In this document: positions 25,666 to 43,794 of the stretch, one piece after another
How positions within the stretch are numbered: position 1 is the stretch's first letter
Layout of the letters: each line of letters begins with the position of its first letter
Source: Achromobacter ruhlandii
Lineage (GTDB): Bacteria > Pseudomonadota > Gammaproteobacteria > Burkholderiales > Burkholderiaceae_B
Reading direction: 5' to 3'
Assembly (NCBI RefSeq): GCF_902859695.1
Contig: NZ_CADIJL010000026.1
Location: 1 to 64,000 of the forward strand
DNA: 64,000 bases
The notes under the pieces: generated by a model
What the model saw: only the letters and a program-made list of their open reading frames with translations
The model's database searches: none
What the model was told of the DNA's origin: nothing
Position numbers and translations under genes: made by a program

Positions 25666-25714
25666 GGCGACCACCGCGCCGGCCAGGGTTGGGCAGGAAT
25701 CAAGGGCTTCATCA

Positions 25715-27817
25715 TCAATACACCAGACGGGGCTTGCCGCAGTCCACCGACAGCAGCGATACATCGGTTTGGCCGACGCTCAGGCCAAGCAGGTCCAGCA
25801 ACTGCTGCAGCAGGGTCGATAGCATGCCCAGCAGCGGCTGCAGCAGGGTCACCACGATCGACAGCACGCCGCCCACCTGGTTGCCGCCGCTCAGCGCCAG
25901 CGTGGACACCGCGTTGACGCGGCATTGGCGGATGGCGTCCGGCGTAATCGCCAGCAGACAGGTCACGTCGCTCAGCGGCGCCAGCAACAGCGAATTGAGG
26001 AGGTTGCCGACCAGTTGCAGCGTGCCGCCCAGCACCCCGGTCAGGCCGCCGGTGGACATGCGCTGGCCCAGCTGGTTGAGCGCGGTCGAGGACCACTGCA
26101 TGTCGTTGACCACCTGCGAAATGGACTTGCCGGGATTGCTGCCCCCGCCGCCGACCAGGGTGGTGGCCAGCGAGGCGCGCTGTTCCGGCGTCAGCGGCGT
26201 GCCGGTGCCGATCAGGTCGCCCAGGATGCCGCCGACCACGGCGTCGGCCAGGTTCGAGGCCAGCGCGCCCAGGTTGATCGAGGTGGCGTTGACGGTGGCG
26301 GTGGAATTGGGCGACGGCGGTTCGGTCAGCGTGACCGACACGGGCGCGGTCGAATTGAAAATCGGCAGCGTGACCTTGCTGGTGAGCGGCAGGATGCCGA
26401 GCACGTTCAGCACCTGGTAGCGCTGGATCGCCGCGAACGAACTCGGCTGGCAACTGTTGGTGATGGACAGGAAATTGGCCTGCACGTTGTCGACGGCCGA
26501 CGACATGCCGGGAAAGCGTCCCAGGCAGATGTTGGCGACGGACGAAGTCACGTCGATGGTGGCCTGCGACTCGGTCAGCGGCGCCTGGCACAGCTTGGAA
26601 ACGGTGCCGGTCGATTGCGCCACGTCGATGATGATGGGCAGGTCGATCTTGGTGCCCAGCGTGTTGGCCAGCAGCGGCCCGACCAGCGGGATGTTGCTGG
26701 TGTTGGCCCGCAGATAGACGCGGATGCCGGCGCTGGTGGCCTGCGTGCCGACGCCGCCCACGCCGATGGAGGGCGGCTCGACGATGCGCACCTGCGACTG
26801 CACGCCCAGCAGCGGCACGTTCAGGCCCAGGTTCACCAGGTTCTGGCCGTTGGCGATGACCAGCGCGGTTTCCAGCACATTGAGCGCGTTGATGTTGGCC
26901 TGCAGCGCCGAATTGATGTCGCCGCTGATCACGTTCAGGTCGAGCACGCCGCCGTCGCCGAACAGCTTGACCGGCAGGTTCACCGGCATCACGTTCAACA
27001 CCACGTTGATGGCGTTGGTCAGCAGCCCGAGGCTGGCGCCGGCGGTGTCGCCGGCCTTGTTCATGACCGTCAGGGTGGCCTGCAGCAGCTGGCCCAGCGT
27101 CAGGTTGTTGAGCGCGGCCAGCTGCGCCGGCGTGCCCACGCCGGTGGCTACCGACACCGGCAGGCCCAACGCTTCCAGCAGGCCGGACGGCGTGATGTTG
27201 ACGCTCGCCAGGCCGGCGGCGTCGAGAATGTCCAGCTGCGCCGGCGTGGCGCCGACGGTGGCCAGCAATTGCGACAGCAGGCCGCCCTTCTGCAAACGCA
27301 GCAGGCGCGAGCCGACCGTGAACACGGCCACCGGCTGGGTGTTGGCCGCCACGGAGATGGTCTGCACCGGCGTGCCGCCCACGATGAACGCCGGCAGCAG
27401 GCTGCTCAGGGTCTTGTTGAGCGTGATGCGCAGCGCGTTCGGCACCTGCCCGCTGCTCGGATCGAACAGGTACATGCCGCTGGCGTCGGGGCGCGAGGTG
27501 TCCCAGAGCTTGCACTCGACCGTCACGTCGCCGGCGGCGAAGGTGTCCAGGATGTTGGGCACGTTGGCCAGCACCGCGGCCTGTCCGGCGGCCTGGGCCC
27601 GGGCGCAATCGGCGGGCGCGCCCATCCCCAGCACCTGCACCGCCGACAGCGCGGCCAGGTCCGTGGCCTTCTGCATCTCGCGCTTCATATAGTAGGCATA
27701 GCCCAGCTGGGCCACGCCCAGCAGCACCAGGCCGACGATGACCGCGAAAACGATGGCCACCGTCATGCTGCCTCGCTGCCGCGGGCAGATTGCAGAACGG
27801 GAATGCGTGGCTGGCAT
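25715..27817 (-). CDS. tadG: TadG-like pilus assembly protein
   Basis: A 700-residue protein whose N-terminus has a basic leader, QRG, and a single hydrophobic segment ([20 protein letters not shown], residues about 18-40), as in TadE/TadG-like N-terminal domains. [17 protein letters not shown] follows, the hallmark of the DUF2134/TadG group. The long remaining part is rich in Leu, Asn, Val and Thr, predicted extracytoplasmic, and contains a few Cys. It lacks the Glu at +5 of true pseudopilins. It is the last structural gene of the Tad operon and may anchor or cap the pilus machine. Confidence 0.8.
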
Positions 27818-28319: not shown

Positions 28320-29213
28320 TTAGCGCATGATCGGGCCGTTGCCCAGTCTGTCCATCAAGGGGCTCATGACCGGCATCACGATGCCCTCGCCCCGCGACAC
28401 GCGGGTGCTCGACACGTCGGCCGCGGTGGCCCCGGCGCTCGCCGAGGTGACCGCCGGGGCGGAGGCCTGGCTGCGGATCTCGGTGGCCAGGCGCAGCACC
28501 TGGCCGCGCGCCTCGTCGCCGAGCTTGGCGCGGTCCATCACGTTCTGGGCCCGCACCGGTTCGCCTTCGACCAGCAGCAGCAGGGCCAGGTTGGCCAGCA
28601 CCTTGGCGCTTTCCGGCGCCAGCTCGGCGGCCTGGCCCAGCGGCACGCGCGCGCCGGCCGGATCGCCGGCGCGCAGGCGCGCATAGCCCAGGTCGCCCAG
28701 GATGCGCGGGTCCATCGGCGACAGCTTGGCGGCGCGCGCGAAGTAGTCGGCGGCCTGGTCGAACTGGCCGCGCGAGCCGGCGATCAGTCCCAGCCCGTGC
28801 CAGCCATCGGCCGCTTGCGCGGTGCCGATCAGGGCGCGGTAGGCCTGCTCGCTGGAGGCGGTCTGGCCCGTCTGGCGCAGCGCCTCGGCGCGCAGTACCG
28901 CGATACGCGGATCGTTGCCGAACTTCTGCTGGAATGCCTCGATATAGGCCAGCGAGGCGAAGTAGCGCTCCTGCCGCTGCGACTCGGCAATCATCGACAG
29001 CATCATGTCCGGCTCGGTCGGCTTGCGCCGGTTCTCGGCTTCGTCCTCGCGCTGGCGCATCAACGCCTGCTCCTGCTGCTGTTGCTGGATCAGCTGCCAG
29101 GCGGTCTCGGCGTTGTTGGTCTGGCACCCGGCCAACGTCCCGGCGCCCGCGGCCACCGCCGCCACCAGGGTCCAACGCCACGCGCACCGCGCATTTCCCA
29201 TACCGCCCGCCAT
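28320..29213 (-). CDS. tadD: TPR lipoprotein TadD
   Basis: A 297-residue lipoprotein with lipobox GTLAGC near residue 30 and several tetratricopeptide repeats (residues about 80-230; for example WHGLGLIAGSRGQFDQAADY and DPRILGDLGYARLRAGD). TadD is the pilotin-like partner required for secretin assembly in Tad systems. The ATG at 29213 overlaps the tadC stop in TGATG; ATG 29201 four codons later is a possible alternative. The frame is open further upstream inside tadC, which I reject. Confidence 0.87.
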   Translation of the reverse strand: MAGGMGNARCAWRWTLVAAVAAGAGTLAGCQTNNAETAWQLIQQQQQEQALMRQREDEAENRRKPTEPDMMLSMIAESQRQERYFASLAYIEAFQQKFGNDPRIAVLRAEALRQTGQTASSEQAYRALIGTAQAADGWHGLGLIAGSRGQFDQAADYFARAAKLSPMDPRILGDLGYARLRAGDPAGARVPLGQAAELAPESAKVLANLALLLLVEGEPVRAQNVMDRAKLGDEARGQVLRLATEIRSQASAPAVTSASAGATAADVSSTRVSRGEGIVMPVMSPLMDRLGNGPIMR

Positions 29214-30217
29214 CACATGCCCCCCATGCGCGACAAACCGCGCAATACCGCCACGAAGCCCGCGCCGCCTGTCACGATCAACAGCGCCGGCAACAAGGTC
29301 ACGATCATGACCGCCGTCATCTTGACGGTGGTCTTGCCCACTTTTTCCTTCAGTTCCAGGCGGCGCTTCTCGCGCAGGCGTTCGCCAAAGCGGTTCAGCG
29401 GCTCCTGCACCGCGCCGCCGTGCTGGTCGACCTGCGCGATCAGCCGGCAGATGGCCGACAGGTCGTCGTTGTCGAAGCCGGCCGCCAGCCGCGCCAGCGA
29501 TTGCTCGCGGGTCCGGCCCCGCACATAGAGCTCGGACGCCAGCCGCAGCTCGTACGCCAGCACCGGCAGCACCTGGTCGAATTCCTTGGTCAGCACCTGC
29601 AGGCTCTGGTCGATCGACAGGCCGACCCCTTGCAGCAGGCGCAGCAGGTCGATCAGCAGCGGCAGTTCGTTGGCGGCCTGCTTGCGGCGCCGCGACAGGC
29701 GCCGGCGCACGAACCACTTGGGCAGCATGTAGCCGATGGCGAAACCGAAAAACGCCGCCACGAACAGGCCCAGCGACGAACCGCCGACCTTGCGTCCCAG
29801 GTCCAGCGCCACCGCCGCCGCCGGCAGCAGCAGCGCCAGGGTGAAGCGCGCCACGATGAAGCGCAGCCGCGCCGTGGCCGGATTCTGGTAGCCCGCCATG
29901 TCGACCAGCTTGCGGTCCTCGCCCGCCAGCAGGGCCTCGGCGAAACGGCCTTCGCTCAGGCGCTTGCCGAACGAATCGGCGGCGCGCGTGGCCGCGGCCA
30001 GGCGTCCCTGCATGCCCTCGGCCGGCGGCGCGGCCGCGGCCTGCGCCTTGGCGCGCCCCTCGCGCGTGGCCAGGGCCTGGTCCACCACCTGGCGGCTGCG
30101 GTCCTGCCCGCGCAGGCGCCGGGTCATGCTCAGGCCCACCACCAGCATGGCGGCGGCGACCAGCATCAGCGCCACCGCCAGCACCGTCGAGACATTCCAG
30201 GATTCGATCGCTTGCAT
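29213..30217 (-). CDS. tadC: Tad inner-membrane platform protein TadC
   Basis: A 334-residue type II secretion F-domain protein. It has membrane segments near residues 10-30, 130-150 and 155-175, and a C-terminal one around 305-325. The cytoplasmic T2SSF domain includes LPLLIDLLRLLQGVGLSIDQ and EKRRLELKEKVGKTTVKMT. Together with TadB it forms the platform that couples the TadA ATPase to pilin assembly. ATG 30217 is 11 bases after the tadB stop. Confidence 0.9.
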   Translation of the reverse strand: MQAIESWNVSTVLAVALMLVAAAMLVVGLSMTRRLRGQDRSRQVVDQALATREGRAKAQAAAAPPAEGMQGRLAAATRAADSFGKRLSEGRFAEALLAGEDRKLVDMAGYQNPATARLRFIVARFTLALLLPAAAVALDLGRKVGGSSLGLFVAAFFGFAIGYMLPKWFVRRRLSRRRKQAANELPLLIDLLRLLQGVGLSIDQSLQVLTKEFDQVLPVLAYELRLASELYVRGRTREQSLARLAAGFDNDDLSAICRLIAQVDQHGGAVQEPLNRFGERLREKRRLELKEKVGKTTVKMTAVMIVTLLPALLIVTGGAGFVAVLRGLSRMGGM

Positions 30218-30228
30218 GCGCGGCGCCC

Positions 30229-31157
30229 TCAAATGGCCTTGGCCATGCGGTACAGGATGTACGAGCCGCCCAGTTGCAGGCAGACCGCCGTCATCAACAT
30301 CTTGAAGCCCAGCGGATCGACCCACAGTCCCATGAACAGGTCATTGTTGGCCACCATGATGAAGCCGGCGATGCCCAGCGGCAGCAGCGCCAGGATCCAG
30401 GCCGACAGCCGGATCTCGGCCGAACTGGCCGACAGCTCGGCGCGCGCCTGGCCGATGTCGCGCATGAATGCGGCCATGCGCTCGAGCACCTGGTCGCTGC
30501 GGCCGCCAAAGCGCAGCGCCACGGAAACCACCGCCGCCACCATATAAAGCTCTTTCATGTCGTACTGGCGCGAAACCTGCACCAGCGCCGCGTCCAGTTC
30601 CTTGGCCGAACGGCTCAGCGCGGCCGCGGTCTCGACCACTTCGCGCAGCGGCTCGTCGGTGGCGGCGGCCGCGGTCTGGAAGGCGGAAGCCATGCTGTTG
30701 CCGATGGTGACCAGGCGCACGATGTTGTCCAGGAACGCCGGCAGTTGCGACACGCGCCGCCGCTGGCGCCGGTCGGCCCGCAGCCACAGCAGGAAATAGG
30801 CGAACACGGACAGCAGCACCAGCGCCACCAGGGCCGACAGCCAGCCCAGAAAGGCCCAGGCCAGCAGCGCGCCCGCCACGATGGGCAGGATCAGCCGGGC
30901 GTAGAAACCGGGACTCTGGCGCACGCCGCCCTGCAACAGCAGCATGTCCCAGCGCGAAAAGCCGCTGCGCAAGGCGCGCGCGCCCTGCGCGAACGGCAGC
31001 TTGCCGCTGACCGGCGCGCCGCGGCTTCGGCGCAACTGGTCTTCGAGGAAAGCGGAACTGGCGGCCCGCCGCTGGCCGCTATTGGCGTGCCGCCACAGCA
31101 GCACCGCCGCCAAGGCCAGCACCAGCGCCAGGCCACCGATCACCCCGGCTTGCAGCA

Positions 31158-31158
<1 letters not shown>
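30229..31158 (-). CDS. tadB: Tad inner-membrane platform protein TadB
   Basis: A 309-residue protein with an N-terminal membrane segment (3-23), two adjacent segments around 90-125, the T2SSF domain (RVSQLPAFLDNIVRLVTIGNSM and SRQYDMKELYMVAA) and C-terminal segments around 255-300. It pairs with TadC. Its start overlaps the tadA stop by one base. Confidence 0.9.
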
Positions 31159-32513
<1,355 letters not shown>

Positions 32514-32534
32514 GTGGGATCCCGCCGCCTTGCG

Positions 32535-33866
32535 TTACTCGACCACCATGCGGCGGTGCACGCCGGGCAGCCAGGTGGCCAGCCAGCTTGCCCGCCCGCC
32601 GGGCGTGTTTTCTTCCGCGCTCAATTTCTCGGCCAGCGCCTGTACCGCGCGCACATAGACGTCGCGCTCGGCCTCCTCGTGCAGCAGGTGGCCCTGGTTG
32701 GTGCAGACCATCAGCGCCAGCGTGCGGTCCGGCAGCGTGCCCACCAGGTCGAGCTGGAAGCGCTCGGCGATCTGCTGGGCCGTCATGCCGTAGCGTTCGT
32801 CGTAGCGGTTAACGATCAGGCCCAGACTGCGGCGGTCCACATGCAACTGCTCCAGTTCCTGCAACAGCCCGGCCAGCGACACCAGCGCGCCCACGCTCTG
32901 GTCGGTGACGATCCAGTTCTGCTGCGAGGCGCGCGCCAGGCCGGCCACGAATTCGGGATTGGTGAACCCGCCCGAGTCGGCCACCACCACGCCGAAGTGC
33001 TGGCGCATGCGTTCGAACACCAGCAGCGAATCGGATTGCGACACGTCGCGCATCTGGCCCAGGTCGCGCGGCAGCGCCAGTACGCTCAGGCCATTCGCGG
33101 TATGCGACATGGCCGAACTCAACAAGGTCGAATCGAGACGGCGCAGATTGCGCGCGGCCTCGGCGAAATCGAAATCGCCGCCGATGTTCAGGTACAACTG
33201 GCAATCGCCCACCGGCCAGCCTAGATCCATCAGCGCCACCCGGCTGCCCAGGGGCAGGTGGCTGCCGCTGTCCGCGGCCGGCTTGGCGCTCTTGGCGCCC
33301 GAGGCCGCGGCGCGCGCGCCATGCTGCTGCTTCAACCGATCCTGCACCATGCCGGCCAGGTGCACCGCCAGCGTGCTGGTGCCCACGCCCGGCCGCGCGC
33401 CCAGCAGCAGCACGCTGCGGCGCGAGCCGTCCATGCGGCCGCCGCCGGCCGGCACGTCCAGCAGGCGCTGCACCACGTCCTTGACTTCCTGCGGCGCCAC
33501 GGTCGGATCGACGAAGTCGCTGACCCCCGCGCGCAGCGCGGCGATGGCGCCTTCCGGCTGGCTCAGCAGGCCCACCGCGACGCGCGGGATCGTCGGCGCG
33601 ATGCGCGCCAGCAGACGCGCCAGTTCGGCCGACTTGAACAGCTTGCCAGGTTCGTCCTCGCTCAAGGTGAAGTCCAGGAACACCACCTGCGGCTCGATTT
33701 CGGACAGGCGCCTGCCCAGTTCCTCGACGCCCGGGACTTCCTGGGTCAACAAGCCCATGTCGCCCAGCGCCTGCCCGAGCTGCGCGGCGACGCCGTCGCC
33801 CTTGGAACAAAACAGAAACCGATTGCCGTTCTGCAAGCCAACCCACTCCCTGGCATGTGTCTTCAT
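32535..33866 (-). CDS. tadZ: Tad localisation ATPase TadZ (CpaE)
   Basis: A 443-residue protein with an N-terminal receiver-like domain (about 15-130; VVFLDFTLSEDEPG keeps an Asp) and a C-terminal MinD/ParA-like ATPase domain (about 150-400). The deviant P-loop reads LGARPGVGTSTLA, where the usual Walker A Lys is missing. DLGWPVGDCQLYLNI and VNRYDERYG are further ParA-like features. TadZ/CpaE positions the Tad machine at a cell pole or focus. ATG 33866 lies 5 bases after the secretin stop; the open frame to 33932 overlaps it. Confidence 0.88.
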   Translation of the reverse strand: MKTHAREWVGLQNGNRFLFCSKGDGVAAQLGQALGDMGLLTQEVPGVEELGRRLSEIEPQVVFLDFTLSEDEPGKLFKSAELARLLARIAPTIPRVAVGLLSQPEGAIAALRAGVSDFVDPTVAPQEVKDVVQRLLDVPAGGGRMDGSRRSVLLLGARPGVGTSTLAVHLAGMVQDRLKQQHGARAAASGAKSAKPAADSGSHLPLGSRVALMDLGWPVGDCQLYLNIGGDFDFAEAARNLRRLDSTLLSSAMSHTANGLSVLALPRDLGQMRDVSQSDSLLVFERMRQHFGVVVADSGGFTNPEFVAGLARASQQNWIVTDQSVGALVSLAGLLQELEQLHVDRRSLGLIVNRYDERYGMTAQQIAERFQLDLVGTLPDRTLALMVCTNQGHLLHEEAERDVYVRAVQALAEKLSAEENTPGGRASWLATWLPGVHRRMVVE

Positions 33867-33871
33867 ATCGC

Positions 33872-35254
33872 TCACCGTGAGAAACCCGGCATTTGCTGCC
33901 CGCCTACTGGGCCCATCAGGTAATAACCCCAAGCATTGAACGCGGTGTCGGTCGCTTCCTGTTTGGCCCCCGGCAGCGGCAGGGTCACGCCGCGCGCAAT
34001 GGGCCGCACCAGGCGCGGCGTCACCACGATCACCAACTCGGTATCCTCCTGGGTGTAATCGACACTACGGAAAAACGAACCGATGATGGGCAGGTCGCCC
34101 AGCATGGGGACCTTGTTGACCAGCGCCTTGGTCTGGCGCGACACCAGGCCGCTGACGACGAAGCTCTCGCCGTCGCCCAGTTCCACCGTGGTGTCGGCGC
34201 GGCGCGTGCGCAGCGCCGGGATCAGCGTGGTCGAATTGGTGCCATTCGAGATCGCGATGGCGTTGCTGTAGTCGAGCTCGCTGGCCTCCGGCGCCACCTT
34301 CAACGCGATGCGCTCGCGCGACAGCACCGTGGGGGTGACCGTCAGGCCGATGCCGAACGGCTTGAACGTCACCGTGGTCGTGCCCAGGCCGCCGGCCTCG
34401 GGAATCGGCAGTTCGCCGCCGGCCAGGAAACTGGCGCTCTGTCCGGTCAGGGCCACCAGCGTGGGCTCGGCCAGCACGCGCGCCATGCCATTGTTCTGCA
34501 GCAGCCGCAGGCGCGCGCTGAAGTCATTGGAGTCGTAGAACAGCGAGAAGCCCGAGGCCAGGGCCGCGGTCTTGCTGAACCCCAGCGGCGCCGGGAAGCC
34601 GTCGGGCGTGATCGAGTTGGTGCCGCCCCACGGCCCGCTGCGGCCGGCGAAGCTGATGCCGGCCTGCTTCATGACCGAGCGCGACACCTCGACCACCTTG
34701 ACCTCGACCTGCACCACGCCGCCGGTGCCGGCGGTCGACACGTCGACCACGTTCTTGTCGCCCACCACCGCGCCGGCCGCGGCCACCGAGGCCTGGTGCG
34801 ACAACGGGGAATCGGCCTGGCCCGAGACCACCGCGCGGTCGCCCGCCACGTCGACGTTGGCGCCGCCGCTCATGCCGCGCCCGGCCATCACCTGCTGGAC
34901 GTTGCCCGCCACCCGCACGTTCCACAGCTGCGGCGCGGCATTGGCGCCGGTCCAGACCTGCAATTGCGTGGTGCCGGGCTTCTTGCCATACAGCAGCAGC
35001 GAGGCCTGCCGCTTGCCGGAAGCCGGCAGCACCTTGACGTCGGCCACGTCCGGATCGCCAATGGCGATGCGCGCCGGCGCGCCATCCAGCATGAGCGTCT
35101 GCTGGCCTTTGACCGCCACGGCGATGTCGCGGGCGGGCGCGGGCGCGCCCGGCGCGGTCTGCAAGGCGGTCTGCGCCAGGCCGGCCGCGCCGTGGGTCAT
35201 TGCCGCTGCGGCCGACAGGACGCAGATCAGGGTGGTGCGCTGAAATCTCTTCAT
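33872..35254 (-). CDS. rcpA: Tad secretin RcpA (CpaC)
   Basis: A 460-residue outer-membrane secretin. It starts with a signal peptide (ending GAAGLAQ), then the pilus-formation N-terminal domain (GQQTLMLDGAPARIAIGDP), a BON-like region (NVDVAGDRAVVSGQADS) and the secretin domain (VEVKVVEVSRSVMKQAG, NNGMARVLAEPTLVALTGQ, FLAGGELPIPE, GLTVTPTVLSRERIALKV, PMLGDLPIIGSFFRS). It forms the pore for the Flp pilus. ATG 35254 gives the signal peptide directly; the frame extends to 35323 without SD support. Confidence 0.93.
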   Translation of the reverse strand: MKRFQRTTLICVLSAAAAMTHGAAGLAQTALQTAPGAPAPARDIAVAVKGQQTLMLDGAPARIAIGDPDVADVKVLPASGKRQASLLLYGKKPGTTQLQVWTGANAAPQLWNVRVAGNVQQVMAGRGMSGGANVDVAGDRAVVSGQADSPLSHQASVAAAGAVVGDKNVVDVSTAGTGGVVQVEVKVVEVSRSVMKQAGISFAGRSGPWGGTNSITPDGFPAPLGFSKTAALASGFSLFYDSNDFSARLRLLQNNGMARVLAEPTLVALTGQSASFLAGGELPIPEAGGLGTTTVTFKPFGIGLTVTPTVLSRERIALKVAPEASELDYSNAIAISNGTNSTTLIPALRTRRADTTVELGDGESFVVSGLVSRQTKALVNKVPMLGDLPIIGSFFRSVDYTQEDTELVIVVTPRLVRPIARGVTLPLPGAKQEATDTAFNAWGYYLMGPVGGQQMPGFSR

Positions 35255-35319
35255 TTGCTGGATCTGGTTGACAGGTAAGGTCCAGCCGCGGGCGGCACCA
35301 GGCCACGCGCAGCCACGTT

Positions 35320-36273
35320 TCAATAGCGCACGCGCTCGGATTTGTCTCCTCGCAGTATTTCCACCGTGCGGCCGCCCGCGCCGCCGGCGGCGCGGGCCGG
35401 CGCGGGCCTGGCCGCGGGTGTCGGGGCATCCAGCTGCGCCAGGCTGTCGCCGGCGTAGGCGCGGTTCGGACCGCTTTGCAGTTGTTCGCGCTGTTCCGGC
35501 GTCAGGTCGGCGCGCGCCGGCAGCACGGCGCTGCGCTGCGCGAACAGCTGGGTATCCGGCTTGCCCTCGTCGCCCACCGGCCGCAGCGCCAGTTGCAGGC
35601 GCCCAGAACGGCTGGCCAGCACCAGTTCATTGACCTGCTCGACCGGCACCGCCAGCACCGCGGTGCGGGCCGGCTGCCCGGGCGGGCCGGGCAGCGTGGA
35701 CTTTTCCTCGGGACCGTCGACCGAGGCCGCGCCATACGCCAGCACGCGCACCTGCGATTGCAGCAGCCGGGCCTGTCCGCCCTGGATCTCGACGCCCTTC
35801 TCCAGCAGGAAGAACACATCCACCAGGTCTCCCGGCGCGATGCGGTTGCCGCCGCCCACCACCTCGTCAACAGCGATCGCCAGCGCGCGCTCGCCCGGCT
35901 TGAGCTGGCGCGCCAGGCCCTGCGCCAGCATGCTGGGCAGCAGCGGGTCGCCCGCGGCCACGTCGACCCGCGTGTAGGCGCCCTGCAGCGGCGTGGTCGC
36001 GCTGTAGCTGCCCGATAGCGCCACCTGCCACTGATCCACCCTGAGCATCTTGTCGCTGTCGATGCGCGTGCCGGCAGGGATCGCCGCGGCCGCCACCACC
36101 ACCGGATAGCGCTTGACCGGCGTCTCGGCCGGCGGGGTCGCCGTGGCCGCCACCGGACCGGCCGGCGCCGCCGGCGGCGCCGACGGTTCCGACGCCAGGC
36201 GCCAGGCCACGAACGCCAGCACAATGCCCGCCGCCAACAACACGCCCGCGATGATCTTGCTCAGACTGCTCAT
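35320..36273 (-). CDS. rcpC: Flp pilus assembly protein RcpC/CpaB
   Basis: A 317-residue protein with one N-terminal membrane segment (about 7-26), a Pro/Ala linker, and an SAF domain (VVVAAAAIPAGTRIDSDKML, residues about 55-115). DEVVGGGNRIAPGDLVDVFF and ARTAVLAVPVEQVNELVLA follow, both typical of CpaB/RcpC. The C-terminus is Ala/Pro-rich. ATG 36273 overlaps the preceding tadE stop by 4 bases. Confidence 0.9.
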   Translation of the reverse strand: MSSLSKIIAGVLLAAGIVLAFVAWRLASEPSAPPAAPAGPVAATATPPAETPVKRYPVVVAAAAIPAGTRIDSDKMLRVDQWQVALSGSYSATTPLQGAYTRVDVAAGDPLLPSMLAQGLARQLKPGERALAIAVDEVVGGGNRIAPGDLVDVFFLLEKGVEIQGGQARLLQSQVRVLAYGAASVDGPEEKSTLPGPPGQPARTAVLAVPVEQVNELVLASRSGRLQLALRPVGDEGKPDTQLFAQRSAVLPARADLTPEQREQLQSGPNRAYAGDSLAQLDAPTPAARPAPARAAGGAGGRTVEILRGDKSERVRY

Positions 36274-36767
36274 GGTGTCCCTTGGGAGATTTGCACGATG
36301 GCTTTGGACGACAGCCGGGTCGGAATCCAGTTCTTGTCGGTCCCCGGCAACATGGCGATGAACGCCTGGAAGGTCGAGAGCACCGGCCAGGCCTGCACGT
36401 TGAAAGTCATGGCGACCGTGCTGCACTGAGCTGTCTGTCCGCCCGAGCCGCTCCACGCGCACGGCGCGCTGGTGGCGGCGCAGGCCACCGCCGAGCCGCT
36501 GCCGAACACGCTCATGGCCGCCGAGCAGGCCGCGCCGGGCACATCCGCCTTGCCGGAAAAGCGCGCGTAGACCGCGGCCCGCGCCCCTTCCGAGGCGGCC
36601 GAGGCCAGTTGCTGCTGCATCCAGAACAGCACGCCGTAGCCCACCACCGCGCAGACGAACATCAGCAGCATCGTCACCATCAACGAGAACTCGAGCGTGG
36701 CGATGCCGCGCTGGCCGTCTGCGCGGCGACGGCCGGTGGCGGCATCGAAGGCGGCGCGCTCGTTCAT
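36270..36767 (-). CDS. tadE: Pseudopilin TadE
   Basis: A 165-residue TadE-family pseudopilin. A basic leader ends in QRG, and the mature part starts IATLEFSLMVTMLLMFVCAV with the Glu at +5 needed for class III prepilin processing by TadV. The extracytoplasmic domain has a disulphide-prone set of Cys residues. ATG 36767 is one base from the stop of the next tadE-like gene upstream. Confidence 0.88.
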   Translation of the reverse strand: MNERAAFDAATGRRRADGQRGIATLEFSLMVTMLLMFVCAVVGYGVLFWMQQQLASAASEGARAAVYARFSGKADVPGAACSAAMSVFGSGSAVACAATSAPCAWSGSGGQTAQCSTVAMTFNVQAWPVLSTFQAFIAMLPGTDKNWIPTRLSSKAIVQISQGTP

Positions 36768-36768
36768 G

Positions 36769-37248
36769 TCAGGGGCTCCCGTCCAGCGCGTTGCCCAAAT
36801 GGACCGTGGCGCGCGCGCTCAACACGCTGGTGGGCGGCATCAGCGCCTGCGCCAGGAACGGAAAATTCGGGATCAGCGGGTTGGCGCCGTAGGGATAGCT
36901 GACCGTCACCTCGATCTGGTCGGCGCTCAGCGGCAAGCCGCTGCAGGCCCCGCCCGCGGTGCTGCTGAGCGTGCCGGTGGCGCCGCACACCGCCACCGCC
37001 ACGGCGGCCGATGACATGGTGGTGATCCAGCCGGAGCGGTCCAGCGCGATATCACGGCCGGCATTGGCGCGCACGGTCAGCGAGGCGGCGCCCGGCTGCC
37101 ATTGCAGGACCTTGCGGGCGCCGTCCTGCGCGGCCAGCGTGACGGAGTGCTGCGCGGTGAACACCAGGGCATACGTCAGGATCGCGTAGAACACCAGGAA
37201 AAACACCACGAATACCAGTCCGAATTCAAGGGAATAAACACCACGCTG
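36769..37248 (-). CDS. Second TadE-like pseudopilin without an identifiable start codon
   Basis: The reading frame encodes QRG followed by VYSLEFGLVFVVFFLVFYAI, a textbook class III cleavage site with Glu at +5, and then about 135 residues of TadE-like extracytoplasmic domain ending VHLGNALDGSP. The first 73 bases of this module lie inside the end of the prepilin peptidase gene. In this frame I find no ATG, GTG, TTG or CTG from 37249 up to about 37389. The first downstream candidate (GTG 37209) would remove the cleavage motif. The coordinates start at the Gln codon before the motif. It is either made by a frameshift from tadV, or the sequence carries an indel. Confidence 0.75.
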   Translation of the reverse strand, partial: QRGVYSLEFGLVFVVFFLVFYAILTYALVFTAQHSVTLAAQDGARKVLQWQPGAASLTVRANAGRDIALDRSGWITTMSSAAVAVAVCGATGTLSSTAGGACSGLPLSADQIEVTVSYPYGANPLIPNFPFLAQALMPPTSVLSARATVHLGNALDGSP

Positions 37249-37697
37249 AGCGCGGCCGCGCCCAGGTAGGCGCCGTAGGGGATCTGGCGAGCCCGAAGCG
37301 GCAGCGCCCGGCTTCGGGAAATGAACAGGTAGAGCAGCGCGTGCAGGCCGGCCAGCAGGCTGGCGGCCACCAGCGTCATGACCAGGGGCGCAAAACCCAA
37401 CAGCAGCCCGAGGATGGCGATCGCCTTGACGTCGCCCGCGCCCATCAGACGCCGCGTCCAGAGGGGAAAGAATGGCAATGCCAGCGCGAAGCCGGCCAGG
37501 GCCATGGACCAACCCGCCCAACGCGGCGGATAGCCCCATGCGGGCGCCAGCCAGGCCGCCAGCAGCCACAGCGCCTGTCCCGCGAATCCCGCGACGATGA
37601 GCGTGTTGGGTACGCGGCGATAGCGCAGATCGGCGTATATCAACACCAGATTCCAGCATGCGAACAACAGCCACCACAGCGCTTCCCCTGGATACAA
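37176..37697 (-). CDS. tadV: Prepilin peptidase TadV (CpaA)
   Basis: A type IV prepilin peptidase-like aspartic protease with about five membrane segments. It has both catalytic Asp motifs, ADLRYRRVPN (first Asp) and MGAGDVKAIA (GxGD). It processes the Flp prepilin and the TadE pseudopilins. No ATG is usable: TTG 37697 with AAGG 7 bases upstream gives about 173 residues, while TTG 37727 adds 10 codons without an SD. The last 24 residues (after GAAAL) are read out of phase across the TadE module, so the true C-terminus may be altered. Confidence 0.85.
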   Translation of the reverse strand: MYPGEALWWLLFACWNLVLIYADLRYRRVPNTLIVAGFAGQALWLLAAWLAPAWGYPPRWAGWSMALAGFALALPFFPLWTRRLMGAGDVKAIAILGLLLGFAPLVMTLVAASLLAGLHALLYLFISRSRALPLRARQIPYGAYLGAAALSVVFIPLNSDWYSWCFSWCSTRS

Positions 37698-37819
37698 GGC
37701 AGGACCTTCTGACGGTTTCGGATTCAACCTGGCAAGACATCCCCGCGCGCGATCCGGCGCGCCACGCCGTCAATCCGCAACCGCCCGAAGTCGCTGCGCG
37801 GGAAATGTGGTCAATAAGG

Positions 37820-37906: not shown

Positions 37907-38083
37907 TCACTTGGACGCGTTGGCGAGCTTGGCCTGTAGCGACGTGAACAGGCCGCTGAGCGCGCCCGTGAATGTCGCCAACGCCGCTACCAGCGCCACC
38001 GCAATGGTGCCCGCGATCAGCCCGTATTCCAGGGCGGTGATACCTTCTTCTTCGTTCCAGAACTGCGCAAGTTTCGCTTTCAT
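37907..38083 (-). CDS. flp: Flp-type major pilin
   Basis: A 58-residue prepilin. The leader MKAKLAQFWNEEEG is cleaved before ITALEYGLIAGTIAVALVAA, with the Flp-specific Glu-Tyr at mature positions 5-6. A short C-terminal tail ends LANASK. ATG 38083 has AGGAGC 7 bases upstream; the longer frame to 38125 is not pilin-like. It is the first gene of the Tad locus and is followed by a hairpin. Confidence 0.95.
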   Translation of the reverse strand: MKAKLAQFWNEEEGITALEYGLIAGTIAVALVAALATFTGALSGLFTSLQAKLANASK

Positions 38084-38211: not shown

Positions 38212-39042
38212 CTAACTCGGCCCCAGGGTGGATCCGGGCGCCCTGCCCGGCTCCACCAGGGGAGCCGATTCAATGATCGAGTCGATGCGCTGCGCCAGGC
38301 GCGCGCGGAACCGGCGCGACGCGCGCTGCAAATGCCAGCGCATCACCAGCAGCATGACGGCCGACAGCGCGAACGCGATGTACGGCAGCATCACCCCGCC
38401 GATCTGCATGCTGGAAAAATCCCTCGGCGTGGTGCAGACCACCGTTCCGGCCGCCGCGCCCGTGTAATGCATGCCGCACACGGCGATCGCCATCAAAATG
38501 GCCGCCGCGACGCGCTGTAGCTCATTGCGCGTATTGAAAGCGAGCCACAATGCGGCTGACGCGGCAATTACCGCTATCAATACCGATAAAACAACCATCG
38601 GCAGATTCCAGATAAATACGGCCGGCATGCGCATGGCGCTGATGCCGACATAATGCATCGCCGCTACGCCCAGACCCGCGGCCAGGCCACCCACCAGGCA
38701 GCGCATAAATGTGAAGCGCTCGCGGCCCACATACCAGAAGGCCCACCCGGAAAAACCCGCCGCCACCAGGAAGCTGATCGCCGTCAATCCAATCTGGTAA
38801 CCTACGCTGAACGGCAATTCCTGTGCCTGCATGCCGATGAAATGCATGCTCCAGATCCCGACGCCGCCCATCGCCAGGGCGCCGATAAGGATGTAACCGA
38901 TGCGGATCTCGCCGTCCTGCATTTCGGTACGGATGCCGACCGCCGCCAGCAGCGCGACATAGGAGCCCAAGGCCGCCATCAGGAACGACAGCGCGACCAG
39001 GCCGCCATGGAACGAGAGCGGGACGATATCGCCGGGGTTCAT
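38212..39042 (-). CDS. MHYT-domain integral membrane sensor protein
   Basis: A 276-residue protein with seven predicted membrane segments and three MHYT-type motifs: WSMHFIGM (about 64), AAMHYVGISAM (about 127) and CGMHYTGAAA (about 189). MHYT domains are thought to sense oxygen, CO or NO through bound metal. Usually GGDEF/EAL or kinase domains follow, but here only a short basic cytoplasmic tail remains. The gene lies 128 bp upstream of flp on the same strand. It might report to an unlinked partner or be an orphan sensor. Confidence 0.85.
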   Translation of the reverse strand: MNPGDIVPLSFHGGLVALSFLMAALGSYVALLAAVGIRTEMQDGEIRIGYILIGALAMGGVGIWSMHFIGMQAQELPFSVGYQIGLTAISFLVAAGFSGWAFWYVGRERFTFMRCLVGGLAAGLGVAAMHYVGISAMRMPAVFIWNLPMVVLSVLIAVIAASAALWLAFNTRNELQRVAAAILMAIAVCGMHYTGAAAGTVVCTTPRDFSSMQIGGVMLPYIAFALSAVMLLVMRWHLQRASRRFRARLAQRIDSIIESAPLVEPGRAPGSTLGPS

Positions 39043-39535: not shown

Positions 39536-41245
39536 ATGAGACGTACGCTTCCTGCAAGTCCGCTTTCCCTCGCCCTGATCTGCACGCTGGCCGCCCTGGG
39601 CACTGCCCATGCCGATGGCCCGTTGCGTGGCAATCCCGTCGACGCCATGCCCCAGATAGAACGGCCGCCCACCGCCACCCAGCCGCCCCCGGTGGTCCAG
39701 GCGCAGACCCCGGAACAACTGGCCCTGCAGGCGCGCCTGGCGCAGCGCATCGTGCCGCGCAACTTCGACGTCACCGGCGTGCACGAAATGCCGTTCGAGG
39801 AGGTGGCCAACCTGCTTTCGCCGCTGTCCGGCAAGGAGATCAGCCTGGGCGAACTGGTGCAGCAGGTCGACAAGATCACGCAGCTGTACCGCGACCGCGG
39901 CTACCCGCTGTCGTTCGCGCTGGTGCAGAACCAGAGCTTCGCCAACGGCCTGGTGGTGGTCACCGTGGTGGAAGGCTATATCGGCACGGTGCGCATCGAA
40001 GGCGACATTGGCAACGCCCAGGACAGGCTGGAATCGCTGGCCGAGCCGCTCAAAGAAGAAAAGCCGCTCAAGCAGGCCACGCTGGAACGCGTGCTGAACC
40101 TGATGCGCACGGTGCCCGGGGTGAAATTCACGCCGTCGCTGGACCTGCCGCGGCGCGCCGACGGCGCCACCGAACTGGTGCTGGCGGCGTCGCGCCAGCC
40201 GGTCAGCCTGACCGGCGGCGTGGCGGACCTGGGCACCGGCATGCAGCCGCTGGTGAACCTGGCCACCAACAGCCTCACGCCGCTGGGAGAACAGGTCAAG
40301 CTGACGGCCTCGGTGCCGTTCAACACCGACGACGTCAAATACGTATCGGGCGAAATCCGCGTACCGCTGGGCAACGACGGCCTGGCCGTCAAGATCGACG
40401 GCTACCACTACGACGCGCGGCCCAAGGACGACGCCATCGACTACCTGGGCTTCAACCGCCGGGTCAAGAACGACCGCATCGGCATCGGTGTCAGCTATCC
40501 GTTCCTGCTCAACAACACCCGCTCGCTGACCGGCACGCTGGGCGTGTACGCCGCCAATTCCAAGGACCGCTACGAGGCCAAGGAATCCGACCGCTGGCTG
40601 CAGCAGGACGCGCAGGTACGCGCCGCCAATCTCGAAATGCGCTACATCCAGGTGTCGGAATCGGCGACCTCGGACGTGACGCTGGCGGTCGCCAAGGGCT
40701 TCAACACCGCCGGCGCCAAGAAGGAGATCAACACCAACTATGGCTACTCGGCGGTGCCGATCCTGGACCTGGACTTCACCCGCTACAACCTGAATGCCAA
40801 GCAGACCTTCGCCCTGCCGGCGCAGTTCGGCCTGACCCTGTCCGGCGCCGCGCAGTATTCGAGCAATATCCTGCCGTCCTCGGAACAGGTGTCGTATGGC
40901 AGCTGGCGGTATGCGATGGGTTATCCGCAAGGCGAGCAGAGCGGCGACAAGGGCGTCGGGGTTTCCGCTGAGGTCAATCGCCGTTTCGGCATCGGCTGGC
41001 AGTATCTGACCAACGTGCAGCCGTATGCGCTGATCGACTATGCCCGCACCTGGTACAACAATTCCGGCCTGCAGCAATTGAATCAGCGCCACCTGTCATC
41101 GGTGGCGCTGGGACTGCGATTTACCGACGACAAGTACTACCTGTTTGATTTCAACGTGGCCAAGCCGATTGGTTCGGCCACCGTCAACGACAACCGCAAC
41201 GTGCGCTTCAACGCCAATTACTCGTTGTATTACGACGCGTTCTGA
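39536..41245 (+). CDS. TpsB outer-membrane transporter (ShlB/FhaC/HecB family)
   Basis: A 569-residue two-partner-secretion transporter. It has a signal peptide (ending ALGTAHA), a Pro-rich linker and a POTRA region (FDVTGVHEMPFEEVANLL to VVEGYIGTVRIEGDIGNA, residues about 70-165). A 16-strand barrel with the GEIRVPLG motif follows, ending in Phe (NYSLYYDAF). It normally exports one large TpsA adhesin or haemolysin with an N-terminal TPS domain. No such gene is adjacent: a terminator follows, and the next gene encodes a repeat-rich lipoprotein. ATG 39536 gives the signal peptide directly. Confidence 0.9.
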   Translation: MRRTLPASPLSLALICTLAALGTAHADGPLRGNPVDAMPQIERPPTATQPPPVVQAQTPEQLALQARLAQRIVPRNFDVTGVHEMPFEEVANLLSPLSGKEISLGELVQQVDKITQLYRDRGYPLSFALVQNQSFANGLVVVTVVEGYIGTVRIEGDIGNAQDRLESLAEPLKEEKPLKQATLERVLNLMRTVPGVKFTPSLDLPRRADGATELVLAASRQPVSLTGGVADLGTGMQPLVNLATNSLTPLGEQVKLTASVPFNTDDVKYVSGEIRVPLGNDGLAVKIDGYHYDARPKDDAIDYLGFNRRVKNDRIGIGVSYPFLLNNTRSLTGTLGVYAANSKDRYEAKESDRWLQQDAQVRAANLEMRYIQVSESATSDVTLAVAKGFNTAGAKKEINTNYGYSAVPILDLDFTRYNLNAKQTFALPAQFGLTLSGAAQYSSNILPSSEQVSYGSWRYAMGYPQGEQSGDKGVGVSAEVNRRFGIGWQYLTNVQPYALIDYARTWYNNSGLQQLNQRHLSSVALGLRFTDDKYYLFDFNVAKPIGSATVNDNRNVRFNANYSLYYDAF

Positions 41246-41274
41246 TCCGCGGCGATATCCCGCGCCATGCCCTC

Positions 41275-41302
41275 GCGCCTGTTTCGACAGGCGCTTTTTC
41301 TT
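41275..41302 (+). terminator. Rho-independent terminator of the TpsB gene
   Basis: GCGCCTG pairs with CAGGCGC around a TTTCGA loop, followed by TTTTTCTT. It lies about 30 bases after the TpsB stop, so the lipoprotein gene downstream should have its own promoter. Confidence 0.88.
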
Positions 41303-41316
41303 GCCCGTTCCATACA

Positions 41317-41372
41317 CCGCGTTACGTAACGCGGCCCGTAACGTAACGGCTGATACGGGCTCGAACGTAACA
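41317..41372. promoter_or_regulatory. GTTAC/GTAAC palindrome cluster upstream of the repeat lipoprotein
   Basis: CCGCGTTACGTAACGCGG (41317-41334) is a perfect 18-bp palindrome. It is followed at once by CCGTAACGTAACGG and about 20 bases later by CGAACGTAACATTCG, so GTAAC occurs four times plus one GTTAC. It lies in the 346-bp gap between the TpsB terminator and the lipoprotein gene. The cluster looks like a multi-site operator, plausibly for the MarR protein encoded two genes on. The rest of the gap (41373-41591) is AT-rich and holds no gene. Confidence 0.6.
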
Positions 41373-41591
41373 TTCGCAGGCGGCGCGTCATCGTAAAAAT
41401 GGGGGATTCCCAATATTGGTACAAACCCTCTGTTTTTCTTTCAAATCATTGATTTACATGGACTTTATTTTATTTGAAGAGAGACTGAACAGGGCCTGAC
41501 ATCGCGTTCGAAAAATATTGGCACGGTTTATGCATGTAGGGATGTATCGGGCAGTTTCCACGCCTGACACTTCCCCCCACAGGAGCTCGCC

Positions 41592-43226
41592 ATGAATGCC
41601 AAGATTGAAACGCAGCGCGTACAACGTATTCTGACCTCCACCGTCATGGCGGCCGCGCTGATGAGCGCGCTGGCCGCATGCGGCGGGGGTGGCGGCGGCC
41701 ACAAGAGTTCGGCCGCCCTGCCCGGCACGGATATTCCGACCAACCCCGGCGGTCCGAACAATCCCGGTAATCCCAATAATCCGAACAACCCCAACAATCC
41801 CAACAATCCGGTCACGACGGGCTTGCTGCAAACCACGTTGGGTAATACCGGCAACGCCGTCGACAACACGCTGCCCCTGAACCTGGGCACCACACTGGGC
41901 GGTGTCGGCAAGGCGCTGGATCCCACCGTCAAGCCGGTGGTCGATACGGTGGTCGGCCTGACCCAGCAAGTGGGCGCCACCACCGGCCTGGGCCAACCCG
42001 TGGACGGCACGGTCAAGCAAGTGGGCGGCCTGGTCGAAGGCCTGGGCACCACGGTCAAGGGCACCGGCCTGCCCGGGGGCCTGAGCAGCGGCGTCGGCGG
42101 CCTGGTGGAAGGCCTGGGCAAGACGGTGGCCAGCACCGGCGGCCTGTTGAACGCCGATCCCAAGAACCCGCAGCCGCTGACCACGATCCTGGGCAACGCC
42201 ACCAACGCGGTGGGCGCCTTGACCGGCGGCCTGTCCGGCCAGGGCGGCCTGCTGAACCCCGTCACCCAGCTGGTCGGCGGCGTGACTGGCGGCGTGCTGG
42301 GCGGACCGTCCAAGCCTTTGCTCGAACCGGCCCTGGGCAACGTCGGCAAGACCGTCGACAACGTATTGCCGCTGGGCCTGCAGCCGACCCTCGGCGGCAT
42401 CGGCGCGGCGCTCGATCCGACGGCCAGCCCGCTGGCCGGCACGGTGGTCGGCCTGACGCAGCAGGTGGGCGCCACCACCAAGCTGGGCGCGCCGGTCGCC
42501 GGCCTGCTCAACACGCTGGGCGGCACCGTCAGCAACCTGGGCGGCCAACTGCCTGGCGGCAACGTGGCCGGCCTGAACGGCGTGCTGCAGGGCCTGGGCG
42601 GCGCGGTCAGCAGCGCCGGCGGCCTGTTGAATGCCACGCCGGGCAACACCAACCCGCTCGGCAACACCCTGGCCAATGCCACCGGCGCGGTGGCGTCCCT
42701 GACCAGCGGCCTGGGCCTGGGCGGCGCGGTGGGCGGCAACAACGGCGGGCTGCTCAGCCCCATCACCGGCATCCTGGGCGGCGTGACCGGCGGCGCCACG
42801 GGCGGCAACGGCGGCCTGCTGGCCCCGGTGACCGGCCTGCTTGGCGGCGTGACTGGTAACCTCGGCGGCGCCACGGGCGGCGCGGCCAACGGCGGTCTGC
42901 TGGGTGGCCTGCTCGGCGGCGTGACCGGCGCCACCGGTGGCGGCACGGCCGGCGGCACCACGGGTAACAACGGGGGTCTGCTGGGCGGCCTGCTCGGCGG
43001 CCTGACGGGCGGCGTCACGGCCAGCGCCGGTGCCAGCACCGGAGCGGGCGCGGGAGCCAGCGCGGGCGCCAGCGCCGGCACGTCGGGCACGGCCAGCAAC
43101 GGCGGCCTGCTCGGTGGCCTGCTGGGCGGCGTGACGGCCGGCGTCAGCGGCGGCACCAGCGCCAACGGCTCGACCAACGGCGGCCTGCTCGGCGGCCTGC
43201 TGGGCGGCCTGTCGGCCAAGAAGTAA
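41592..43226 (+). CDS. Repeat-rich Gly/Asn lipoprotein (collagen-like-repeat type)
   Basis: A 544-residue predicted lipoprotein with lipobox ALAAC (Cys30) followed by six Gly, and no Asp at +2, so probably outer-membrane directed. Residues 51-74 are an NPGGPNNPGNPNNP-type low-complexity linker. Two diverged copies of about 130 residues follow (about 81-215 and 247-374), sharing LGN.G..VDN.LPL, TLGG.G.ALDPT and VGLTQQVGATT. The last 160 residues carry GGLLGGLLGG modules at about 434, 461, 504 and 530, separated by Ala/Ser/Thr/Gly spacers. The function is unknown. Its place between a TpsB gene and a MarR gene suggests a surface structure or adhesin. Confidence 0.85.
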   Translation: MNAKIETQRVQRILTSTVMAAALMSALAACGGGGGGHKSSAALPGTDIPTNPGGPNNPGNPNNPNNPNNPNNPVTTGLLQTTLGNTGNAVDNTLPLNLGTTLGGVGKALDPTVKPVVDTVVGLTQQVGATTGLGQPVDGTVKQVGGLVEGLGTTVKGTGLPGGLSSGVGGLVEGLGKTVASTGGLLNADPKNPQPLTTILGNATNAVGALTGGLSGQGGLLNPVTQLVGGVTGGVLGGPSKPLLEPALGNVGKTVDNVLPLGLQPTLGGIGAALDPTASPLAGTVVGLTQQVGATTKLGAPVAGLLNTLGGTVSNLGGQLPGGNVAGLNGVLQGLGGAVSSAGGLLNATPGNTNPLGNTLANATGAVASLTSGLGLGGAVGGNNGGLLSPITGILGGVTGGATGGNGGLLAPVTGLLGGVTGNLGGATGGAANGGLLGGLLGGVTGATGGGTAGGTTGNNGGLLGGLLGGLTGGVTASAGASTGAGAGASAGASAGTSGTASNGGLLGGLLGGVTAGVSGGTSANGSTNGGLLGGLLGGLSAKK

Positions 43227-43254
43227 TCAACCGGATCCGTGAGGGAGCGACGCC

Positions 43255-43794
43255 ATGCTGCAACAAGAAACCATCGTCCACCACGAGCATGTGACCGTGA
43301 TGCCTGAATCTCGCAATAATGATCTGCGGCCCGGAATGCTTGACGACATCGCCCTGATGCTGGGCCGGCAGTTCGCCGTGTACAACGCGGCGTGCCAGTC
43401 GGCCCTGGCGGAGAAACTGGGTATCCCCCTGGCGGATCTGAAAGCGCTGGAACTGGTGATGGAGTTCGATGCCCTCCCCACCGGCCAGCTGGCCCAGCTG
43501 ATGGGCATCAGCTCCGGCGGCGCCACCGCCCTGATCAACCGGCTGGAAGCGGCCGGATATGTGCAACGGGGCCGCCACCCGCTGGACCGCCGCATGATCG
43601 TGATCCGGCCGGTCGAGGAGCAATGCCAGCAACTGGCCCAGGAACGCCAGTGGGTGGCCGAGGCGGTGGTGTTGATGGCCCGGCGCTACGACGCCGGCGA
43701 GCTGGAGGTGGTGCATGCCTTCCTGGCGCAATGCGTGCGCGCCCTGAGGCACGACACGCTGGTCTGGCTGGAAACCCGCAACGCCCACGACTGA
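43255..43794 (+). CDS. MarR family transcriptional regulator
   Basis: A 179-residue MarR-type regulator. The winged HTH is seen in LPTGQLAQLMGISSGGATALINRLEAAGYVQRGRHPLDRRMIVIRP (residues about 75-122), with the dimerisation helices on both sides. It starts 28 bases after the lipoprotein stop and is probably co-transcribed. It is the only regulator at this locus and a natural candidate to bind the GTTACGTAAC cluster upstream. An extended N-terminus of about 25 residues precedes the conserved part. Confidence 0.88.
   Translation: MLQQETIVHHEHVTVMPESRNNDLRPGMLDDIALMLGRQFAVYNAACQSALAEKLGIPLADLKALELVMEFDALPTGQLAQLMGISSGGATALINRLEAAGYVQRGRHPLDRRMIVIRPVEEQCQQLAQERQWVAEAVVLMARRYDAGELEVVHAFLAQCVRALRHDTLVWLETRNAHD

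Follow-up and report, generated by a model that had tools for sequence, protein, structure and literature searches.

In two-partner secretion (type Vb), an outer-membrane TpsB transporter such as FhaC, CdiB or ShlB is paired with a TpsA protein, usually a giant one, which it exports. Known TpsA proteins are β-helices, and on the usual view this secretion needs the β-helix to fold outside the cell. Slam (DUF560) also combines an outer-membrane barrel with a lipoprotein, and Slam translocons have been likened to two-partner secretion (PMC9090332). In the Burkholderia cepacia complex, 'collagen-like' lipoproteins carrying the PF15984 domain (Bcc-CLPs) are regarded as putative adhesins, and BCAL1523 and BCAL1524 lie in a possible operon with the outer-membrane protein BCAL1522, beside flp genes (PMC10224339). 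The passages of that paper on this locus do not term BCAL1522 a TpsB or the pair a secretion system.

BCAL1524 has been found in outer-membrane vesicles, and its deletion leads to less autoaggregation and to milder disease in Galleria (PMC10303873). A location in vesicles alone is no proof of surface exposure. BCAL1520, BCAL1523 and BCAL1524 are induced together with flp genes upon contact with host-derived membranes (PMC7970998), and the BCAL1524-1520 and flp operons of B. cenocepacia are reported to respond to the quorum-sensing regulator CepR (PMC2753556). The passages on BCAL1522-1524 and flp genes in these four papers (PMC10224339, PMC10303873, PMC7970998, PMC2753556) contain no test of the TpsB. 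In the accessible part of a survey of the Omp85/TpsB superfamily (PMC4104836), the word 'collagen' is absent and the mentions of lipoproteins concern other matters. TasL (PMC9040878) was considered as a precedent for a TpsB acting with a lipoprotein and set aside, no TpsB being named in the corresponding part of that source. A TpsB-lipoprotein pair described as a secretion system was not found in the open-access PMC literature, a scope that leaves aside subscription papers and preprints.

The window, that is, the whole stretch of 64,000 nucleotides of Achromobacter ruhlandii that was analysed, contains a tpsB gene, a PF15984 lipoprotein gene and a MarR-family gene beside flp genes, an arrangement that recalls the Bcc-CLPs. 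Its TpsB resembles the type Vb transporters in fold, in two POTRA domains and a barrel, and in having an adjacent partner gene. Unlike a TpsA, the partner carries a lipobox, measures about 400 to about 950 residues among relatives, has no TPS domain and is modelled as helical. The transporter also belongs to a clade separate from other TpsBs. It differs from Slam in barrel family, with ShlB and POTRA_2 matches and no PF04575 (Slam barrel domain) found by a Pfam search.

The TpsB transporter and its partner gene

The tpsB gene occupies positions 39536-41245 of the forward strand, from an ATG at 39536 through 569 codons to a stop ending at 41245. The preliminary description took the gene to be intact, as this full frame with its POTRA_2 (1.9e-18) and ShlB (3.3e-16) matches confirms. 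The N-terminus is signal-peptide-like, and the second POTRA domain was read from an AlphaFold2 model built with 21 sequences (mean pLDDT 81). CdiB (6wim) and FhaC (4ql0) are the best solved-structure matches of the model, and the BamA-RcsF structure 6t1w is also among its fold matches. The protein has the ShlB-type POTRA domains and barrel of two-partner secretion, and its closest named relatives are from Achromobacter.

The Arg of the L6 motif VRGY/F pairs with the Asp of the F/GxDxG motif in β13, and activity depends on the VRGY motif (PMC5422565), which is essential. Neither motif is matched by the window TpsB, which reads AMGYP in L6 and LIDYA in β13; the Asp is kept, whereas the Arg and the Gly are not. 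A quick tree of 57 TpsBs, from which L194 was dropped as too short and in which some rows counted as canonical had no TpsA within the fetched stretch, places 29 lipoprotein-linked and four Pandoraea sequences behind a 100% branch. With the four longest rows removed, a careful tree of 53 TpsBs supports the lipoprotein-linked clade at 100/99, and the clade appears in 100% of 200 bootstrap trees; the program warned of long branches meeting in these trees, including other TpsBs with the lipoprotein-linked clade. At the L6 Arg position, 29 of 33 clade members have Leu, Met or Tyr. Arg is retained in four, namely two from the genus Pigmentiphaga together with G280 and G483, compared with 23 of 24 other TpsBs. 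For the β13 acid, 32 of the 33 have Asp and one has Glu, and the residue two positions after it is Ala in all 33, compared with Gly in 21 of the 24 others.

The lipoprotein gene (41592-43226, forward strand) begins with an ATG 346 bp after tpsB. In its 544-residue product, a lipobox (..SALAAC, Cys30) is followed by a Pro/Asn linker, then by two Collagen_mid (PF15984) copies that are 57% identical across 134 aligned positions, and by a tail in which the motif GGLLGGLLGG occurs four times. The PF15984 score is 51.3 bits, above the curated cut-off of 31.1. A glycine-rich lipoprotein without a TPS domain or FHA-type repeats had been described here before, and this characterization stands: Gly makes up 146 of the 544 residues, and the Pfam search lists neither the TPS domain (PF05860) nor haemagglutinin-repeat families at E ≤ 1. 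The collagen repeat PF01391 is likewise not listed at E ≤ 1 (the repeats themselves were not counted), and a PF05860 search of the A. ruhlandii genome gives no match at this locus. The exported protein contains no Trp, Tyr or Phe and one Cys.

The lipoprotein model is helical, with a mean pLDDT of 66.5. Block means reach 75-93 over residues 81-220 and 241-370, fall to 52-62 between them and are low beyond about residue 370. The Collagen_mid domains are modelled as helices, and no fold-search match was obtained at E ≤ 0.001. A MarR-family regulator gene, also recognized in the preliminary description, follows after 28 bp (43255-43794, forward strand; MarR_2, 2.2e-11).

Pairing of TpsB and lipoprotein across genomes

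The conservation of the pair, the distinctness of the TpsB clade and the link to Tad genes are well supported. Among 121 genomes of the family, PF15984 lipoproteins occur in 33 and a TpsB orthologue, defined by at least 45% identity to the query (with a partial sequence in G036), in 32. The orthologue is present in 32 of the 33 PF15984 genomes and in none of the 88 others (Fisher p 1.8e-28, a value that ignores kinship). The exception is G037, a draft assembly in about 300 contigs, whose lipoprotein lies on a 3.6-kb contig. The remaining matches to the query reach at most 37% identity, mostly below 30%, and split cleanly from the orthologues, apart from a fragment of 35 residues at the start of a contig in G118, a genome that has an orthologue anyway. 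In all 32 pairs the two genes share a contig and a strand; the lipoprotein gene lies downstream, and its PF15984 domain begins 387-1562 bp beyond TpsB. This constant adjacency upholds the earlier pairing of a TpsB with a lipoprotein that lacks a TPS domain, and shows the pair to be conserved. A MarR orthologue (E ≤ 1e-15) is found in 30 of the 121 genomes, all among the 33 with PF15984; it is absent from G031, G035 and G091.

Scanning GTDB species genomes with a TpsB alignment yielded 217 confirmed relatives; the best 80 of them were retained, some with loci that end early at contig ends. A lipoprotein gene adjoins TpsB in 64 of these best 80 loci of 217, downstream in 58 and upstream on the same strand in six (Cupriavidus, Burkholderia and Ralstonia). 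The other 16 are 13 Pandoraea loci and three short or early-ending contigs (L107, L109 and L156). The 58 downstream cases comprise 45 with a MarR gene, ten in which the contig ends first and three without MarR (L129-L131). The ten contigs that end first are drafts that stop inside the lipoprotein gene (L084, L085, L087, L089, L090, L094, L101, L102, L103 and L122), probably an assembly effect of its repeats. Among 369 class-level genomes, PF15984 exceeds the cut-off in two besides A. ruhlandii, G280 and G483, both of other families, where the lipoprotein lies directly upstream of a TpsB. Matches in G162 and G259 fell below the cut-off and were left out of the counts, and no TpsB is present in the G259 stretch (L082). 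A lipobox is found in all 22 lipoprotein frames of one set examined; in the larger locus set, the pattern missed the first copy of L124, L074 and some fragments.

In Pandoraea, TpsB (L141, L144-L155) lies apart from lipoprotein-MarR clusters (L178-L185). PF15984 genes are away from TpsB in 10 of 11 Pandoraea genomes searched, and G497 has a TpsB and no PF15984 match. All eight clusters read carry a MarR homologue and two or three lipoproteins, and Tad genes lie beside seven of them. Two or three lipoprotein genes are also seen in Alcaligenes and Allopusillimonas (L127, L128, L081, L123 and L124), where several of these genes are followed by a MarR gene and preceded by a sigma-54-like element and a palindrome.

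A TpsB in this setting might instead serve a TpsA encoded elsewhere, its lipoprotein neighbour being incidental. In A. ruhlandii itself a remote TpsA is conceivable, as the genome holds six TpsBs and eight TPS-domain matches, some of them not adjacent. Contig ends may account for some of the unpaired genes; C14:107308, C58:5666, C58:20892, C40:28720 and C37:47341 mark TPS-domain frames without an adjacent TpsB match and a TpsB without an adjacent TPS domain. As a general rule, a remote partner is contradicted unless the genomes concerned hold a TPS-like protein invisible to PF05860, a profile that could miss a very divergent TPS domain. PF05860 has no match in 13 of 32 relatives with PF15984, and 12 of these 13 carry the TpsB. 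The preliminary description proposed to look for pair-bearing genomes that lack a linked TpsA; 12 of 31 relatives with the pair, including the single-contig G001 and G117, have no PF05860 match anywhere, so a distant TpsA is not the general partner. Among 15 further genomes searched, PF05860 was not found in G280 and G503, both of which have the TpsB. In 10 of the 12 relatives, the TpsB is the only one found by the query P0001 at E ≤ 0.001, a search that misses divergent TpsBs and recovered three of six in A. ruhlandii. An orthologue beside a true TpsA, named earlier as a finding that would speak against the pair, was not encountered; whenever one contig of a family genome carries both PF05860 and the orthologue, they are more than 100 kb apart. 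No frame longer than 1100 residues lies on the TpsB strand in any of the best 80 loci of 217, some of which are shortened by contig ends. Service to a remote TpsA is thus very improbable.

It is also highly improbable that Slam or another route displays the lipoprotein while TpsB is merely linked to it. The single PF04575 gene of the A. ruhlandii genome would agree with such a route, but in 17 chosen pair-bearing genomes no PF04575 match lies near the pair, and 11 of them gave no match at all.

RcsF provides a precedent for a lipoprotein seated in, or threaded through, BamA-loaded porins. By analogy, the lipoprotein could be a structural partner in or through the TpsB barrel and not a released substrate, an unlikely arrangement for which the strict pairing with a single TpsB clade, an altered L6/β13 lock that could suit a resident partner and the fold match to BamA-RcsF can be cited. 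PF15984 lipoproteins outnumber clade TpsBs in some genomes, however, and at the locus itself in Alcaligenes, Allopusillimonas and Cupriavidus. The Pandoraea clusters of two or three lipoproteins and the variable frame length among relatives, which is more passenger-like, also argue against a resident partner.

The Tad/Flp neighbourhood and control elements

The tpsB-lipoprotein-MarR block abuts Tad/Flp pilus genes of the opposite strand, a link that the preliminary description missed. These genes (28320-37727, reverse strand) encode a TPR protein, TadC, TadB, a CpaF ATPase, a CpaE-like protein, a secretin, RcpC, two TadE proteins and a prepilin peptidase; names beyond the Pfam names are presumptive, and the CpaE-like assignment uses position and a weak Response_reg match. 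A 58-residue Flp pilin, named from its sequence and place, is encoded at 37907-38083, a TadG-like protein (Pfam Tad) at 25715-27817, and a sigma-54 enhancer-binding protein with Sigma54_activat and a Fis-type HTH at 24259-25764, all on the reverse strand, the last lying at the end of the Tad genes. The window resembles other Tad/Flp loci in holding Tad genes from the pilin to TadG, and we take TpsB, the lipoprotein and MarR to be extras and not core Tad components. An MHYT-domain membrane protein is encoded between the Flp pilin gene and tpsB (38212-39042), and in many loci of Achromobacter, Bordetella and Pigmentiphaga its gene adjoins the block.

Tad genes lie beside TpsB in 61 of the best 80 loci of 217, and the sigma-54 activator is present in 20 of 27 longer stretches from relatives. 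The seven stretches without it are two from Pusillimonas and four from G280 and G483, all without Tad genes, and one with an early contig end. No Tad matches were found near the pair in the two Pusillimonas genomes (about 20 kb upstream and 6 kb downstream) or in G280 and G483 (about 20 kb on each side).

Type II systems export lipoproteins, and Tad or type II-like machinery might export this one as a pilus-linked adhesin while TpsB does something else. The 61 loci with adjoining Tad genes fit such a division of labour, as do the Pandoraea lipoproteins, which stay beside Tad genes in seven of eight clusters with TpsB moved, and the joint induction with flp genes in Burkholderia (PMC7970998). 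Given the pairs without nearby Tad matches in the two Pusillimonas genomes, G280 and G483, Tad-mediated export is judged quite unlikely.

An intrinsic terminator with an 8-bp stem and a T run lies between tpsB and the lipoprotein gene (41275-41299, forward strand); the scan gave one site in the region, compared with an average of 4.2 in shuffled sequence, and the call rests on fit and place. The terminator suggests that tpsB and the lipoprotein gene do not form one transcript in the window, and a single operon of tpsB, lipoprotein and MarR genes is doubted here. A sigma-70 promoter scan returned two weak sites, both within genes. The palindrome CGTTACGTAACG (41320-41331), a candidate upstream activating sequence or MarR operator, has one exact copy in the 6.86-Mb genome, and an imperfect second palindrome, CCGTAACGTAACGG, was found by the palindrome scan at 41336-41349. 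Two sites of this type in the window compare with 0.30 expected, a number reached by three of 100 shuffles.

A promoter-like element, TTGGCACGGTTTATGCA (41518-41534, forward strand), is located 57 bp before the lipoprotein ATG. Scored against the sigma-54 -24/-12 consensus, it is the best in the window at 12/13. As 1.77 such matches are expected by chance in 64 kb, a single match is chance-level alone, and the case for the element therefore rests on conservation: a score of at least 11/13 occurs in 53 of 60 loci, compared with 48 of 2742 control windows. The motif GTTACGTAAC, within one mismatch, is present in all 45 loci with MarR, compared with 26 of 3530 control windows, in none of 20 loci without MarR and in 12 of 15 with early-ending contigs. 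Its distance from the -24/-12 element downstream is roughly 110-220 bp, which is a usual position for an activator site.

The distribution of GTTACGTAAC over loci with and without MarR at first favoured a role as solely a MarR operator. This reading was weakened because 17 of the 20 MarR-less loci have something other than the lipoprotein promoter in the stretch behind tpsB, and because GTTACGTAAC also precedes the MarR-less lipoprotein genes of Cupriavidus and B. territorii. Since the motif and sigma-54-like sites occur at MarR-less loci, they suggest control by the activator encoded in the adjoining Tad locus, and from these sequences the Tad-locus sigma-54 enhancer-binding protein would most likely activate the lipoprotein promoter at GTTACGTAAC. 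Against this assignment count Corticimicrobacter (L131), where the activator is present and the palindrome absent, one of five Pandoraea clusters scanned that lacks the palindrome and, by analogy, the CepR response of the B. cenocepacia operons. The motif was also not found upstream of the lipoprotein gene in Ralstonia L162. The earlier interpretation thus stands in part: the conserved pair holds, but a lipoprotein under its own regulator is not supported in that form, given a terminator that splits tpsB from the lipoprotein and MarR genes and a promoter-like element and motif that also occur without MarR.

A proposed route for PF15984 lipoproteins

From gene content, linkage, clade, motifs and promoter conservation, we infer a dedicated two-partner-like surface system, considered probable with appreciable room for doubt, in which this TpsB subfamily moves Collagen_mid lipoproteins outside as Tad-associated adhesins. 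The lipoprotein would start out with a Sec/lipobox signal, receive its lipid and then travel to the outer membrane; the Gly at its +2 position is no retention signal. The cognate TpsB, with its remodelled L6/β13 contact, would take it up through the POTRA domains and move the Collagen_mid domains and the Gly-rich tail outside, while the lipid anchor stays. Once exposed, the lipoprotein may act as an adhesive or aggregating coat working with the neighbouring Tad/Flp pili. The sigma-54 promoter would govern its transcription, most likely after activation by the enhancer-binding protein of the Tad locus at GTTACGTAAC, and the MarR encoded downstream may be a further regulator.

Export by TpsB appears to be the most economical mechanism. 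The B. territorii locus L158 has the gene order of BCAL1522-1524 with a clade TpsB at the place of BCAL1522, and differs from the window in having no MarR of this kind; we infer from gene order, and not from its sequence, that BCAL1522 is an orthologue of the clade TpsB. By this analogy, the presence of BCAL1524 in vesicles, its role in autoaggregation and the joint flp induction would speak for the mechanism. Against it stand the terminator after tpsB, the separate Pandoraea TpsBs in 13 of the best 80 loci of 217, the surplus of PF15984 lipoproteins over clade TpsBs and the one Slam gene of the A. ruhlandii genome. The predicted helical fold of the Collagen_mid domains, unlike the β-helix of a TpsA, would also weigh against it.

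A more specific proposal, held at somewhat below even chances, is that the clade represents a distinct two-partner class, in which TpsBs with a rebuilt L6 flip helical, aromatic-free, TPS-less lipoproteins outside under sigma-54 control shared with Tad. In that case, translocation would not need the folding of a β-helix outside the cell. Two-partner secretion is understood to need a TPS domain, and the conserved partner of this clade shows neither a TPS domain nor a β-helix; the clade would therefore test what TpsB barrels really require. Surface lipoproteins would then have, besides Slam, a second barrel family, and a group of Burkholderiales lipoproteins would have an export route; one member of that group has already been linked with aggregation and with virulence in wax-moth larvae. 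TpsB, PF15984 lipoproteins and Tad pili are joined in one testable locus, which suggests an unrecognised route for bringing an adhesive lipoprotein onto the cell surface in Achromobacter ruhlandii and many of its relatives.
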